Origin: a virus
Strand: one strand, 5' to 3'
DNA length: 64,000 nt
IMG/VR virus record: IMGVR_UViG_3300023174_000039
Coordinates: 248,001-312,000 of that record
The position numbers and the translations under genes are program-made. Positions within the stretch are counted from its first letter, which is position 1; each line of letters opens with the position of its first letter. Of this stretch, positions 57,681-62,513 are shown piece after piece. The notes beneath the pieces are model-generated. The model saw only the letters and a list, made by a program, of their open reading frames with translations, was not told the DNA's origin and did no database searches.

Positions 57681-59758
57681 TCCAAATTAAAAACTTGACT
57701 GTTAAAAACTTCATGAGTGTGGGCAATGCCACACAAGGTATTGACTTTGACCGTAACGACCTTACACTTGTGCTGGGCGAAAACTTGGATCTAGGCGGTG
57801 ACGGATCACGCAATGGCACAGGCAAGACCACTATCATTAATGCGTTGAGTTATGCTTTGTATGGACAAGCACTATCAAACATTCGCAAAGATAATCTTGT
57901 GAACAAAACCAACGGCAAGAATATGTTGGTTAGTCTAGACTTTGTTGTGAACGGGCAAGAATACAAGATCGAACGTGGGCGCAAACCCAATGTGTTGCGG
58001 TTTTATGTCAACAATCAAGCGCAGGTATCTACAGACGAAGCGCAAGGCGATAGTCGAGAAACACAAGATGCAATTGAACGGATTATGAATATGAGTCATG
58101 ACATGTTCAAACATGTGCTGGCGCTAAACACTTACACCGAACCGTTCTTGAGTTTAAAAGCCAATGACCAGCGCAACATAATCGAGCAGTTGTTGGGTAT
58201 CACTTTGCTGAGTGAACGTGCAGATGCCATCAAAGAACTTAATCGACAGACCAAAGATGGCATCAGTCAAGAAGAATTTCGTATTCGTGCTGTGCAAGAA
58301 GCCAACAAACGCATCGAAGAACAGATTGAAAGTTTGAAACGCAGACAAGTACTCTGGCAGAAGAAGTACGATAGTGATGTAGCATATCTCGTGGCACAAT
58401 ATGATGATCTAGACAAGATTGATATTGAAGTAGAATTACTAGCTCACAAAGATCTGGCCTTGTGGACCACAAGAAAACAACAACAAGATGCGTATACTGC
58501 ACTTGTTGGTCGCCAAACTGCTTGGAAGCAAAAACAACAAAAAGATATCAGTGAGTTGGAATCAGGTTACAACAATCTCAGTCACATTGACATTACTGCA
58601 GAACTACAAGCACATGCGGACTTGGCTGCTCACACACAACAAGCCAAGGACATTGCTGACCTTGAAAAACTCATTGCTAGATGTGTTACCGACGAGGCAA
58701 AAGAACAGAAAACAATTGATAAGCTCAAAACCGAAATTGATGAATTAAAAAATCACAAGTGTTATGCTTGTGGGCAAGACTTTCACGACGCCAATCATGA
58801 AACAGTGCTAGCAACAAAAGAAAAGGCTCTACAAGAAGCCGCACTGCAAGCATTGAGTACCAATGGTCAGTGGATAGAAAATACAGATGCATTGGCTGCA
58901 TTAGGTGTGCTAGGTACCAAACCCACCACACACTACCGTACAGAAACAGAAGCAATTCGACATTCAAGTGAACTAGAAAATATTCAACACAAGATTGATG
59001 CCAAACGTGCAGAAACAGATCCCTATGCTGAACAACTAGCAGAACATGCCCTTGTAGAAGTCGGCACACAACCTGTTACACATTACGACACAGAGGCTCA
59101 AGCTGTTGAGCACCGCAGTCGTATGAACACATTGCTGACACAGATTGCTACCAAAGGTGAAGAGAAGGATCCTTACACAGAACAGATTGTTGAAATGCAA
59201 CAACAAGCATTGCAGACTGTGAGTTACGATACACTCAACGATCTTACCAGATTGCAAGATCATCAAGACTTCTTGCTCAAACTATTGACATCAAAAGATT
59301 CATTTGTGCGCAAGAAAATTATTGATCAGAACTTGAGTTACCTGAACGCACGACTCACACACTATCTAGATCGCATTGGATTGCCACACACTGTGAAGTT
59401 CCAGAACGATCTAAGTGTAAGCATTGAAGAACTGGGTCGTGAACTAGATTTTGATAACTTATCACGTGGTGAACGCAATCGATTAATCTTGAGTATGTCA
59501 TGGGCCTTCCGTGACGTATGGGAAAGTCTGTACTCACCAATCAACTTGTTGTTTATTGACGAGTTAATTGACAACGGTCTAGACACACAAGGCGTAGAAA
59601 ATGCCCTGGCTTTGCTGAAGAAGATGAGTCGCGAACGCCACAAGAGTATCTGGCTTGTAAGCCATAGAGACGAGCTTGCAGGGCGTGTGGAAAACATTCT
59701 CAAAGTTGTAAAAGAGAATGGCTTTACCAGCTACAACACCGACATAGAACTGGCATAA
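57677..59758 (+). CDS. 46: Recombination nuclease ATPase subunit, T4 gp46-like (Rad50/SbcC family)
   Basis: A 693-residue SMC-type ATPase. Walker A is RNGTGKTTI (residues ~44-52), coiled-coil arms follow (~180-350 and ~370-540), and a zinc hook HKCYACGQDFH has its CxxC near 361-364. The ABC signature is LSRGERNRL (~595) and Walker B LLFIDELIDNGLD (~624). With gp47 it makes the end-resecting nuclease. It is longer than T4 gp46 (560 residues), mainly in the coiled coils. The stop overlaps the next start as TAATG. Confidence 0.95.
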   Translation: MIQIKNLTVKNFMSVGNATQGIDFDRNDLTLVLGENLDLGGDGSRNGTGKTTIINALSYALYGQALSNIRKDNLVNKTNGKNMLVSLDFVVNGQEYKIERGRKPNVLRFYVNNQAQVSTDEAQGDSRETQDAIERIMNMSHDMFKHVLALNTYTEPFLSLKANDQRNIIEQLLGITLLSERADAIKELNRQTKDGISQEEFRIRAVQEANKRIEEQIESLKRRQVLWQKKYDSDVAYLVAQYDDLDKIDIEVELLAHKDLALWTTRKQQQDAYTALVGRQTAWKQKQQKDISELESGYNNLSHIDITAELQAHADLAAHTQQAKDIADLEKLIARCVTDEAKEQKTIDKLKTEIDELKNHKCYACGQDFHDANHETVLATKEKALQEAALQALSTNGQWIENTDALAALGVLGTKPTTHYRTETEAIRHSSELENIQHKIDAKRAETDPYAEQLAEHALVEVGTQPVTHYDTEAQAVEHRSRMNTLLTQIATKGEEKDPYTEQIVEMQQQALQTVSYDTLNDLTRLQDHQDFLLKLLTSKDSFVRKKIIDQNLSYLNARLTHYLDRIGLPHTVKFQNDLSVSIEELGRELDFDNLSRGERNRLILSMSWAFRDVWESLYSPINLLFIDELIDNGLDTQGVENALALLKKMSRERHKSIWLVSHRDELAGRVENILKVVKENGFTSYNTDIELA

Positions 59759-60768
59759 TGTTAGCTACTTGGCACTTTCACATTGAGATCTCCAGCAAGT
59801 GTACCTTGCAGTGTCCTCGTTGTGCTCGTCAAGAAGTACCCAACAGTCTTGTGAATACAGAACTAGACCTAGAATTTTTTAAACGTAATTTTACTCCAGA
59901 GTTTATCAAAAACAATGTAGAGAAGATTACGTTTTGTGGCGACGATGGTGATCCTATATATGCACATGATCTAATTCCTGTTATAGAATATATCAAAAGC
60001 GTCAAACCTGTTGAGTTTGTGATTGTCACCAATGGATCGCATAAAAAAACTGCATGGTGGACAGAACTAGGCCAATCTCTAGATTCCAGCGACAGTGTGC
60101 ATTTTAGTGTAGACGGATATGACAATGACAGCAATAACCTGTATCGTGTCAACAGTGATTATGATAGTGTTGTTGATGGCATAAAAACTTTGCGAGCATC
60201 AAGCGATTGCAAGATTGTGTGGGCCGCTATTGCTTTCAAATTCAACGAAGAACAATTAGACTCCATGAAAGAGTTTGCACAATCTATAGGTGTTGACCGG
60301 TTCCAGTTAACCAAGAGTACCAAATTTGGCAGTGTGTATCCTTCATATGGCATAAACGATCCATTGCAACCCAGTGTAAAATACATTAGCAGTACTCACC
60401 GATTTGAACGTGAGGCAACGGTGTTTACAGATACAGGATCCCAAGACTCTGTATCCCAGACAAACATACAATTATTCAAACAAACAACAAGTCGCAATGG
60501 TATTACTCCATTGTGCATGATAGGCAACAAAGGACTGTACATTGATGCCCGCGGCAGGTTATTTCCCTGCTGTTGGGTAGCTAACCGATACAATCACAAT
60601 TCAGACTGGCAACAACAGGCAACAAACTTTGATTTACACAACAAAACATTAATCAATGTACTTGCAGATACATTTTGGTCTACAGAATTTCAAACATTCA
60701 AGTGGCAAGAATGCCAAAGCAAGTGCAAAACTTCAGTAGTAGACGAGAAATACGCAACTTCTTGGTAA
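59758..60768 (+). CDS. Radical SAM protein, CTLQCPRC type
   Basis: A 336-residue protein with the cluster motif CTLQCPRC at residues 15-22, GDDGDPIYAHD in place of GGEP, and DARGRLFPCCWVAN near 262-275. A later ECQSKCKTS adds further Cys ligands. This matches the layout of the protein at 5174-6289 (C-terminal auxiliary domain, no N-terminal twitch), so the phage carries two members of this subgroup 54 kb apart. It begins inside the gp46 stop codon and therefore shares the replication operon. Substrate unknown. Confidence 0.82.
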   Translation: MLATWHFHIEISSKCTLQCPRCARQEVPNSLVNTELDLEFFKRNFTPEFIKNNVEKITFCGDDGDPIYAHDLIPVIEYIKSVKPVEFVIVTNGSHKKTAWWTELGQSLDSSDSVHFSVDGYDNDSNNLYRVNSDYDSVVDGIKTLRASSDCKIVWAAIAFKFNEEQLDSMKEFAQSIGVDRFQLTKSTKFGSVYPSYGINDPLQPSVKYISSTHRFEREATVFTDTGSQDSVSQTNIQLFKQTTSRNGITPLCMIGNKGLYIDARGRLFPCCWVANRYNHNSDWQQQATNFDLHNKTLINVLADTFWSTEFQTFKWQECQSKCKTSVVDEKYATSW

Positions 60769-60808: not shown

Positions 60809-61237
60809 ATGACATGGCTATATCAAGATACCCCAATTGAGATGTTGCCCGATGAGTGTGTTGGATTTGTTTACTTGATTACAAATAATCTCACTGGACG
60901 CAAGTACATAGGCAAAAAATTAGCAAAATTTAGCAAAACAACATACAAGACAGTTAAGCAAAAGAATGGCATCAAGAAGAAGAAAAAGATACGATCAAAG
61001 GTCGACTCAGACTGGAGAGAGTACTATGGGTCAAGCCCAGAATTAACTTCAGACGTAATCAAACTAGGCACCGAAAACTTTACCAGAGAAATACTTTTTT
61101 ATTGCAACTCTAAATCGGAATGTAGTTACATTGAAGCAAGAGAACAATTTGCAAGAAGAGTATTAGAATCACAAGATTATTACAATGGCCACATACAAGT
61201 GCGTGTGCATGGCAGTCATATTATAGGCAAATTATGA
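60809..61237 (+). CDS. SegE-like GIY-YIG nuclease-family protein
   Basis: A 142-residue protein with a GIY-YIG-type N-terminus: FVYLITNNLTGRKYIGKKLA near residues 15-34, a Lys-rich insertion (KQKNGIKKKKKIRSK), WREYYGSSPEL, and a conserved EREILF-type segment (FTREILFYC) followed by an Glu in YIEAREQF. Relatives in T4-like phages are named SegE-like; in T4, Seg proteins are free-standing homing endonucleases, but this version is widespread in marine phages and may serve DNA metabolism instead. It overlaps the next gene by 4 bp. Confidence 0.8.
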   Translation: MTWLYQDTPIEMLPDECVGFVYLITNNLTGRKYIGKKLAKFSKTTYKTVKQKNGIKKKKKIRSKVDSDWREYYGSSPELTSDVIKLGTENFTREILFYCNSKSECSYIEAREQFARRVLESQDYYNGHIQVRVHGSHIIGKL

Positions 61238-61503
61238 CCAAACTTGATTGGAACCGACAACCTTGGATCAGTACAATGAACTCAGAGTACTGGACAAATC
61301 CAAAGACCGGGTTTGACAAGGCTTGGCACGAGCAACAAAAACACAAAAAAGCACAGACAGAGAAAGAAAAGCAGTTTTTAGGCATACATGCAACACACGA
61401 GTTAGATCGCATTCAGCTAGAGTACGGTCCTCATGCAGGCAAACTTATTTGTAAAACTTGTAAAAATAAATTTCTAAAGTGGCTTCCAAAGGAAGCATTT
61501 TAA
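61234..61503 (+). CDS. Small CxxC protein of unknown function (89 residues)
   Basis: An 89-residue protein with a basic, helical middle (KAWHEQQKHKKAQTEKEKQF) and a C-terminal half-zinc-ribbon-like element, GPHAGKLICKTCKNKFLKWL. Similar 'H-x-K-L-x-C-x-x-C...KWLPK' ends are found in marine T4-like phage proteins whose role is unknown to me. It is the last gene of the plus-strand operon, before a noncoding region of 467 bases. Confidence 0.65.
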   Translation: MTKLDWNRQPWISTMNSEYWTNPKTGFDKAWHEQQKHKKAQTEKEKQFLGIHATHELDRIQLEYGPHAGKLICKTCKNKFLKWLPKEAF

Positions 61504-61509
61504 TCTAAC

Positions 61510-61875
61510 ACTGAAGGTTAGCGGGCCAGTTTGTAATACCGCTGTGGAAAAACCGGGGAATAACCGGACACGTAACATATTGAAGCACTCCCGTCAGTAG
61601 ATCTGACTATCCTGAAAAATTGGAAGTGAGTCTGAGAGCAGAACCCTACGCTCAACGCTTTGATATAGTATGAATGTTAGCATACGAGAACACCGGCTAT
61701 AAAAACTTAAACACTAGGAACGAGGTTTAAGGTAGCAAGAGATTGCAATGTCGACGTAGGTTGGGAAAGGTCAGAGCCCAGTAGCACACGGTGTATAAAA
61801 ATACCTACTTCCAATGTCGTGGCTGTGACAACTCACATGAAGACAAAAACGGAACCGCGCAAAACGGTTCCGTCT
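61510..61875 (+). ncRNA. Candidate structured RNA of unknown class
   Basis: This stretch has no coding frame but holds many short complementary segments on the plus strand: CTAAC/GTTAG (near 61505-61521), AGCGG/CCGCT (61520-61543), CACTCC/GGAAGTG enclosing GTCAG/CTGAC (61586-61627), GTATG/CATAC (61669-61685), CTTAAAC/GTTTAAG (61707-61732, 7 bp), GCAA/TTGC, and GTAGGT/ACCTAC (61756-61807) enclosing TGGG/CCCA. A 9-bp hairpin ends the region at 61849-61873. I could not match it to tRNA, tmRNA, RNase P RNA or a complete group I core. Orientation is a guess from its position after a plus-strand operon. Confidence 0.4.
61845..61873 (-). terminator. Intrinsic terminator (minus strand)
   Basis: A 9-bp perfect stem ACGGAACCG / CGGTTCCGT with a 7-nt loop. 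On the minus strand it is followed by TTTTT (complement of 61845-61849). It would catch minus-strand transcripts that pass the first terminator. On the plus strand there is no U-run, but the hairpin could still protect an RNA 3' end. Confidence 0.65.
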
Positions 61876-61920
61876 GACTAAAACAATCTACATGAATACT
61901 TAATCGCTTCGCTCTTGAAT

Positions 61921-61971
61921 TAAAAAAACATTGACGAGCAAAGCGAGTCAATAGAACTTCGTAGAAGTTCT
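61921..61971 (-). terminator. Intrinsic terminator after the nucleosidase gene (minus strand)
   Basis: Just past the TAA at 61971, an 8-bp stem AGAACTTC / GAAGTTCT (61953-61971) is followed on the minus strand by a second hairpin TTGAC...GTCAA (61931-61951) and then a run of seven T (complement of 61922-61928). The second hairpin plus T-run is a typical rho-independent terminator. Confidence 0.75.
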
Positions 61972-62513
61972 TAAACAGTTACTCCAAGTTCAAGTAGTTT
62001 AGCAATAAAGAACTTTTCTCCATTGGATACAGATTGTTTCCAAGAGTCATGAGCTTGATCATCTGCTTGATCAGTAATGTATTTGAAGCAACGGAATTTG
62101 ACCTTGTACCGTAAACATGCCTTGGCAATTGCATATGCCTCCATATCAACTACGTCTGCAGGTATGTCAAGTTTGGGATTCATCACAAAGTTATCTCCGG
62201 TACTGCATGTGAGTCCATTGGTACCTGTGCTCAGTATGATATCATCTTCAAATGGAGTTTGTCCGTCTGCACATCCCATGGCCTGACACGTGATATCTCT
62301 TTGTACAAATTGAGTACATTCATGTAGACCGGGACCAGCAGTAATACCACCTGCTGTGCCTATATTGATAATGCGATCTGGTTGATAACGTTCGATCACT
62401 TGTGCGGCAGTTAATGCCGCATTGACCTTGCCAACCCCGGTATAGAACACATTCATCATGTGTCGTAGGTTAGGAGCCTCGCTGGGCAAGGCTATCAAGA
62501 TCACAGTTTTCAT
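61971..62513 (-). CDS. MTA/SAH-type nucleosidase (PNP/UDP superfamily)
   Basis: I choose the ATG complementary to 62511-62513, which overlaps the upstream TGA as ATGA, giving 180 residues. A TTG six codons upstream is less likely. Family motifs: ILIALPSEAP with Glu12 at the same place as the catalytic Glu12 of E. coli MTA/SAH nucleosidase, YTGVGKVNAALT, NIGTAGG, VVDMEAYAIAKAC (nucleoside-binding Met-Glu), and YITDQADD with the catalytic Asp. Such enzymes split methylthioadenosine, S-adenosylhomocysteine and 5'-deoxyadenosine. The protein is shorter than bacterial homologs (~230 residues). With eight radical SAM proteins and a methyltransferase in the same window, by-product removal is a plausible role (inference). 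Confidence 0.85.
   Translation of the reverse strand: MKTVILIALPSEAPNLRHMMNVFYTGVGKVNAALTAAQVIERYQPDRIINIGTAGGITAGPGLHECTQFVQRDITCQAMGCADGQTPFEDDIILSTGTNGLTCSTGDNFVMNPKLDIPADVVDMEAYAIAKACLRYKVKFRCFKYITDQADDQAHDSWKQSVSNGEKFFIAKLLELGVTV

Follow-up and report, generated by a model that had tools for sequence, protein, structure and literature searches.

The window analysed here is a 64,000 nt stretch of DNA that forms part of a 331,654-base virus record, that of a giant phage. Within it about 370 bases without a gene raise the question of whether they encode a structured RNA and, if so, of what class. A sequence-only reading had proposed a novel structured RNA at this place on account of an apparently high density of complementary pairs. 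The lack of a gene was confirmed: an 89 aa ORF ends with its stop codon at 61503, the convergent nucleosidase gene is reached at 61971, and the interval has no ORF longer than 48 aa. Traces of decayed coding sequence were not seen. The RNA and the genes around it are arranged as follows:

60809-61237, + strand: SegE-like GIY-YIG nuclease gene (Pfam PF19835 SegE_GIY-YIG, 6e-33), directly upstream and the constant neighbour of the RNA slot
61234-61503, + strand: small ORF of 89 aa, function unassigned, between SegE and the RNA and found only in some type A loci
61505-61896, + strand: type A RNA, whole conserved unit, from DNA conservation in more than 100 viral contigs and from covariation
61971-62501, - strand: nucleoside phosphorylase-like gene (Pfam PF01048, 8e-20), convergent, bounding the slot in the window phage

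The RNA of the window is called type A here to distinguish it from types B and C, described below; its 5' end abuts the stop codon of the 89 aa ORF.

Covariation supports a structured RNA

The complementary pairs singled out from the sequence, CTTAAAC/GTTTAAG, GTAGGT/ACCTAC and TGGG/CCCA, are present and all three are real stems, at 61706-61712 with 61725-61731, at 61756-61760 with 61804-61808 (GTAGG with CCTAC) and at 61762-61765 with 61777-61780. An unusual density of such pairs could not be confirmed from the single sequence, which folds no better than its shuffles: the minimum free energy z was -1.31 on the + strand (9 of 100 shuffles as good) and -1.17 on the - strand (13 of 100). With z values of only about -1.3 and -1.2, pair density alone is not beyond chance, and single-sequence folding was rejected as proof of structure.

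Homologues were first obtained through searches with neighbouring proteins in IMG/VR, where contigs carry about 400 bases that are mostly 83-88% identical to the window, adjacent to an 89 aa protein that is 59-84% identical. Two exact-pattern scans together with profile searches yielded more than 100 type A loci in viral contigs, and 79 distinct copies from viral contigs were aligned. The hand-built structure, consisting of 83 pairs in 17 helices, is paired in 96.9% of cells across these 79 RNAs, with two-sided compensatory change in 51 of the 83 pairs (561 such cells). None of 500 shuffles reached any measure of this structure, and in slid controls, where partners were moved by 1-3 columns, pairing fell to 30-38%. 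When column pairs were ranked by mutual information without an assumption of nesting, the top pairs were mostly base pairs, pseudoknots included.

Covariation among the homologous intergenic regions was strongly positive, and it shows type A to be a real structured RNA of about 390 bases with several pseudoknots. Combined with the lack of an Rfam 15 match, it supports the proposal of a novel structured RNA, the extent of which had been placed at 61504-61880 and is better given by the comparative data as 61505-61896 on the + strand. On the same comparisons, type A is a previously unlisted RNA family, absent from Rfam 15. It was not found in the phage isolates, plasmids or GTDB genomes searched; a 17-mer matched 96 GTDB stretches, and type A RNA was absent from those whose sequence could be inspected.

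Anatomy of the type A RNA

The elements of the RNA, listed from 5' to 3', are:

61505-61510, + strand: P1 5' strand, CUAACA, forming a pseudoknot with UGUUAG at 61675-61680 in the apical loop of P8
61520-61543, + strand: P2 hairpin (61520-61524 with 61539-61543), with GC/CG/AU exchanges
61544-61571, + strand: P3 hairpin, outer GUG/CAC and inner CCGG/CCGG
61580-61663, + strand: P4 (61580-61586 with 61657-61663), enclosing P5, P6, P6b and P7 as a multi-helix middle domain
61587-90 with 61628-31, + strand: P5
61593-97 with 61603-07, + strand: P6
61610-12 with 61622-24, + strand: P6b
61636-38 with 61651-53, + strand: P7
61668-61685, + strand: P8 hairpin, GUAUG/CAUAC, the loop of which forms P1
61690-61794, + strand: P9 (61690-61695 with 61789-61794) and P10 (61696-61699 with 61782-61785), crossed by P14
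61706-61731, + strand: P11 hairpin, CUUAAAC/GUUUAAG, with the nearly invariant loop ACUAGGAACGAG; the 7-bp stem of the sequence-only reading
61753-61808, + strand: pseudoknot core P13/P14/P15, the nested unit of that reading
61753-55 with 61770-72, + strand: P13, GAC/GUC, in which the P15 loop pairs back to the GAC just before P14
61756-60 with 61804-08, + strand: P14, GUAGG/CCUAC, enclosing hairpin P15
61762-65 with 61777-80, + strand: P15, UGGG/CCCA, 97.2% paired
61835-61841, + strand: X7 copy 1, ACAUGAA, preceded by CUC
61849-61873, + strand: P16 tail hairpin, ACGGAACCG/CGGUUCCGU, between the X7 copies, 95% paired and mostly invariant
61890-61896, + strand: X7 copy 2, ACAUGAA, preceded by UCU; the conserved unit ends here (3')

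P1, P13 and P14 are paired in 100% of cells, with two-sided changes in 4, 3 and 4 pairs, and such changes extend to all five pairs of P6 and to five of the seven in P11. P10 is 96% paired, with two-sided changes present. P9 is only 78% paired, apparently because of register shifts between subtypes. Compensatory changes are present in each of the stems that had been named from the single sequence (P11, P14 and P15). No U-tract follows P16.

Comparison with known RNA classes

Searches against Rfam 15 gave nothing for the whole window at gathering thresholds and only chance-level matches for the RNA region at E up to 10. Covariance models of GOLLD, ROOL, OLE and HEARO found no match to type A at E up to 10, and the earlier failure to match the region to any class stands, with GOLLD, group I intron, HEARO and tmRNA all unsupported. 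A group I intron with P/Q/R/S-like strings was rejected: an Rfam match is absent and the covarying pairs contradict a P3-P7 core, covariation assigning the R-like and S-like strings to different partners. Type A interrupts no gene and sits between genes in the loci examined. Also rejected were a tmRNA, of which ARAGORN finds none, and an HDV-like double pseudoknot, which is similar in topology but for which matching catalytic sequence is absent.

GOLLD and ROOL are said to take each other's place, and the twin X7 tail is, to our knowledge, not a familiar feature of GOLLD, ROOL or OLE. Type A resembles these RNAs, which are large and pseudoknotted, occur partly in phages and have no known coding function (structures: PMC12286853), but it is shorter and lacks a covariance-model match. 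Like the omega RNAs of IscB/TnpB (HEARO) it adjoins a nuclease gene on the same strand; unlike them it has a GIY-YIG neighbour instead of IscB or TnpB, no HEARO match and no guide region. That neighbour, as a PF19835 SegE_GIY-YIG protein, resembles T4 SegE and the free-standing GIY-YIG homing endonucleases. T4 SegE and its kin are short, consist of the GIY-YIG domain only and are widespread in T4-like phages, and a literature search found no report of an RNA associated with T4 SegE-like endonucleases.

One genomic slot for several RNA types

Of 164 type A loci, 135 have a SegE-like gene immediately 5' of the RNA and on its strand; of 98 type B loci, 78 have one immediately upstream. Type B fills the same slot in sister phages whose nucleosidases share 75-98% identity with that of the window, and there too the nucleoside phosphorylase-like gene adjoins the RNA. 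Type B was matched by an exact 24-mer in at least 120 stretches and has base-pair covariation of its own; A and B were together in no fetched locus or tested record. Eighty SegE loci were picked by protein alone, ranked by closeness to the query SegE and thus a non-random sample; the 73 with enough sequence comprised 59 with type B, three with type A, three with type C and eight without RNA. On a FastTree phylogeny of 170 SegE proteins, the parsimony count gives at least 21 changes of RNA type (A/B). These loci show three or more interchangeable RNA types occupying one slot across hundreds of phages.

The cores of A, B and C have no detectable homology. Their kinship is not demonstrated, because A and B fail against the RF01718 model described below, no sequence-profile similarity was found between the A and B cores, and a covariance model of the type A middle domain found nothing in B or C. 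Short strings common to the cores, e.g. ACUAGG, are suggestive only.

Six type A loci from a different phage context have SegE just downstream or close by, and about ten loci of this second context carry the RNA without SegE nearby. The second-context loci point to horizontal transfer of the RNA. Loci of this kind, where type A lies beside other genes with or without SegE, are L149, L152, L154, L162, L166, L171, L173, L181 and L183. SegE relatives are found in 506 phage records; five of their loci were inspected and none has room for an RNA of this kind, so SegE can do without it. SegE as an obligate partner was rejected, as SegE without RNA and RNA without nearby SegE both occur.

In many type A loci the RNA begins directly at the upstream stop codon or overlaps it, and no conserved sigma-70 promoter was found upstream of type A overall, the mean score being equal to that of the shuffled control, which would make co-transcription with SegE the likeliest source of the RNA. 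Exceptions are the divergent loci L142 and L037, in which a perfect promoter-like TTGACA-N17-TATACT lies 58 nt before the RNA.

Type C contains the Polynucleobacter-1 RNA

When types A, B and C were searched against Rfam at permissive thresholds, only type C gave matches. Its 5' part contains RF01718, the Polynucleobacter-1 RNA, at 88-92 bits over the 141 positions of the model, which covers only about the 5' third of type C and misses the tail. The RF01718 model (cut-off 37 bits) had no match at E up to 10 in the type A RNA of the window, nor was there a match in other type A loci, in the whole genome of the window phage or in type B. Its relation to type A lies in type C, which occupies the same genomic slot and has the twin-X tail that falls outside Rfam's definition. 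Both type C and bacterial RF01718 loci carry this kind of tail with matched X copies, whereas types A and B score nothing against RF01718. The family was listed in 2010 without a function, from Burkholderiales and from fresh water/estuary (Weinberg et al. 2010, PMC2864571), and besides that paper a literature search found none naming RF01718.

RF01718 scored above its cut-off in three of 399 genomes, taken from the order of one MAG titled Alcaligenaceae. Bacterial RF01718 loci (L613, L614, L615 and L616) adjoin a DUF6641 gene on the other strand, recognised by a Pfam match in L613 and by likeness to the eye in the others. The L613 locus lies between two tyrosine-recombinase genes. Because such genes flank it on both sides, the bacterial copies probably lie in integrated elements.

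The twin X7 tail

The order of the tail is the same in all types, CUC-X7, hairpin and UCU-X7, with type C more variable. Within type A, 74 of 79 RNAs carry two identical X7s, in seven versions overall; by position, the copies agree in 78-79 of the 79 RNAs at each of bases one to six and in 75 at base seven. The preceding triplet is CUC at copy 1 and UCU at copy 2 in 76-79 of the 79 RNAs, and because these triplets are kept distinct while the X7s agree, wholesale gene conversion is not the reason for the agreement. Type B copies agree in all 75 parsed RNAs, under a tail parse that did not require identity. By parsimony on core trees, type A has 16 changes in copy 1, 14 in copy 2 and 16 jointly, and type B has 20, 20 and 20, giving about 35 concerted X7 changes for the two types.

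Most type C tails show matched strings of 5-9 bases; strings of 8 and 9 bases, e.g. GUGUCAAGU and AGGAUAAU, are well above the shuffled control and 5-mers are not. Three bacterial chromosomal copies carry AACAAAAG, AGCGAAA and GGCGAAAG, each twice, and so follow the same rule with other X7s, under a tail pattern that required the two strings to be identical.

X7 versions track RNA type and not phage lineage. In the ranked covariation list X7 has no conspicuous third partner column elsewhere in the RNA. Enrichment of X7 was not seen in five phage genomes, and a role as a genome-wide promoter or signal was rejected on that ground. Neither its complement nor an identical copy was found at matching or syntenic gene starts or ends in five genomes, and none was consistent within 4 kb.

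Possible function

Comparison of the loci establishes the pseudoknotted fold, the fixed slot 3' of a same-strand SegE-like gene, the replacement of the core by B or C, and the matched tail. The best explanation, to which we would give slightly less than an even chance, is a phage-encoded structured non-coding RNA that is the 3' part of the SegE transcript and combines a swappable scaffold with a twin X7 tail read by one partner. Type A would be made as part of that transcript, either cut from it or read through, and its body would fold compactly and expose the tail. One partner would then read both X7 motifs, most likely an RNA-binding protein contacting both, or else a strand pairing with each. 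Given a single reader, a change in one copy would have to be matched in the other. Recombination beside the nuclease gene could exchange the scaffold and so swap RNA types between phages; a published account places nuclease genes at the borders of genetic exchange between phages (PMC10448857). A protein partner would account for the tolerance of CUC and UCU; a nucleic-acid partner would account for the free choice of X7, but its complement was not found. Against this explanation, no partner for X7 was found in the genomes and regions searched, the 506 records with SegE relatives include five inspected loci without an RNA gap, and about ten RNAs have no nearby SegE. That X7 follows RNA type over phage lineage is also hard to square with a partner that the phage encodes at another site.

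Unlikely, in our estimate, is a regulatory RNA with twin seeds, in which both X7s would pair with one short site in phage or host RNA or DNA and the body would act as a stabiliser. Strict identity combined with free sequence over about 35 joint changes is the expectation for pairing with one common strand, and CUC and UCU are both able to pair with purine triplets. However, the five phage genomes contain no enriched or syntenic complement, and none lies inside the RNA.

It is slightly less likely still that X7 acts in DNA, as paired iteron-like sites for a DNA-binding or nicking protein, with nuclease and slot forming a homing or gene-conversion cassette. Concerted direct repeats beside a hairpin resemble iterons, RNA type has been swapped at least 21 times while SegE stays, the placing of nuclease genes at phage exchange boundaries is described in PMC10448857, and the bacterial copies are near integrase genes. 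Yet the tail directly follows the RNA covariation and persists across three RNA types, hairpin and X7 have a fixed order on a single strand, and SegE itself is not swapped together with the RNA.

Several pseudoknots, invariant unpaired segments and matched sequences at two possible processing sites would suit a ribozyme or a derivative of an intron acting at the tail by cleavage or splicing. We consider this quite improbable, as no group I, group II or ribozyme family matched, the covarying pairs do not build a group I P3-P7 core and no gene is interrupted.

By analogy with the omega RNAs of TnpB/IscB, the downstream RNA might serve SegE as a guide or scaffold in an RNA-guided GIY-YIG nuclease. 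In 65 of the 73 SegE loci of the clade the RNA adjoins SegE on the same strand, which speaks for such a role, as do six loci of another phage context in which the pair is kept with the RNA upstream of SegE. The proposal nevertheless seems very improbable, given SegE relatives in 506 phage records with inspected loci lacking the RNA, about ten RNAs without a nearby SegE, SegE and RNA types that are unlinked on the tree, and no variable guide region seen. Least probable, in our view, is that the RNA does no more than stabilise or terminate the SegE transcript as an element of its 3' UTR: it lies directly 3' of a stop codon with a hairpin near its end, but about 390 nt and multiple pseudoknots far exceed the needs of a terminator, P16 has no U-tract, and elsewhere the RNA precedes SegE or stands alone.

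More tentatively, the three types may form a superfamily of exchangeable phage RNAs, with different bodies and the same two-site tail, whose sites, identical but free in sequence, would imply paired recognition. We know of no described non-coding RNA with such a mechanism, whether through nucleic acid or a dimeric protein. The extreme form of this reading, if true, would have the RNA direct either a GIY-YIG nuclease or a step of recombination. The comparisons add a well-supported RNA family that Rfam lacks and give the orphan Polynucleobacter-1 RNA of 2010 a new place, as the leading third of a larger phage RNA that ends in a conserved tail. They also present a rare case in which RNAs without detectable homology replace each other in one genomic slot, and the matched X7 pair makes function testable.

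Neighbouring genes

The 89 aa protein (61234-61503) has a CxxC pair near its end and is absent from the type B loci read; it matched no Pfam family above the cut-off and no PHROG family. A radical-SAM protein (59758-60768 of the window) sits between an SbcC-like gene and SegE, a position at which related loci have different genes inserted. After the RNA, at 61903-61975, there are inverted repeats with A/T runs (TCGCTTCGCTC..., GAACTTCGTAGAAGTTC), which look like a terminator common to the convergent genes. Many phage records and phrog_447 label the SegE-like GIY-YIG protein 'NAD synthetase', which looks like a propagated misannotation because Pfam assigns the protein to SegE_GIY-YIG at 6e-33.
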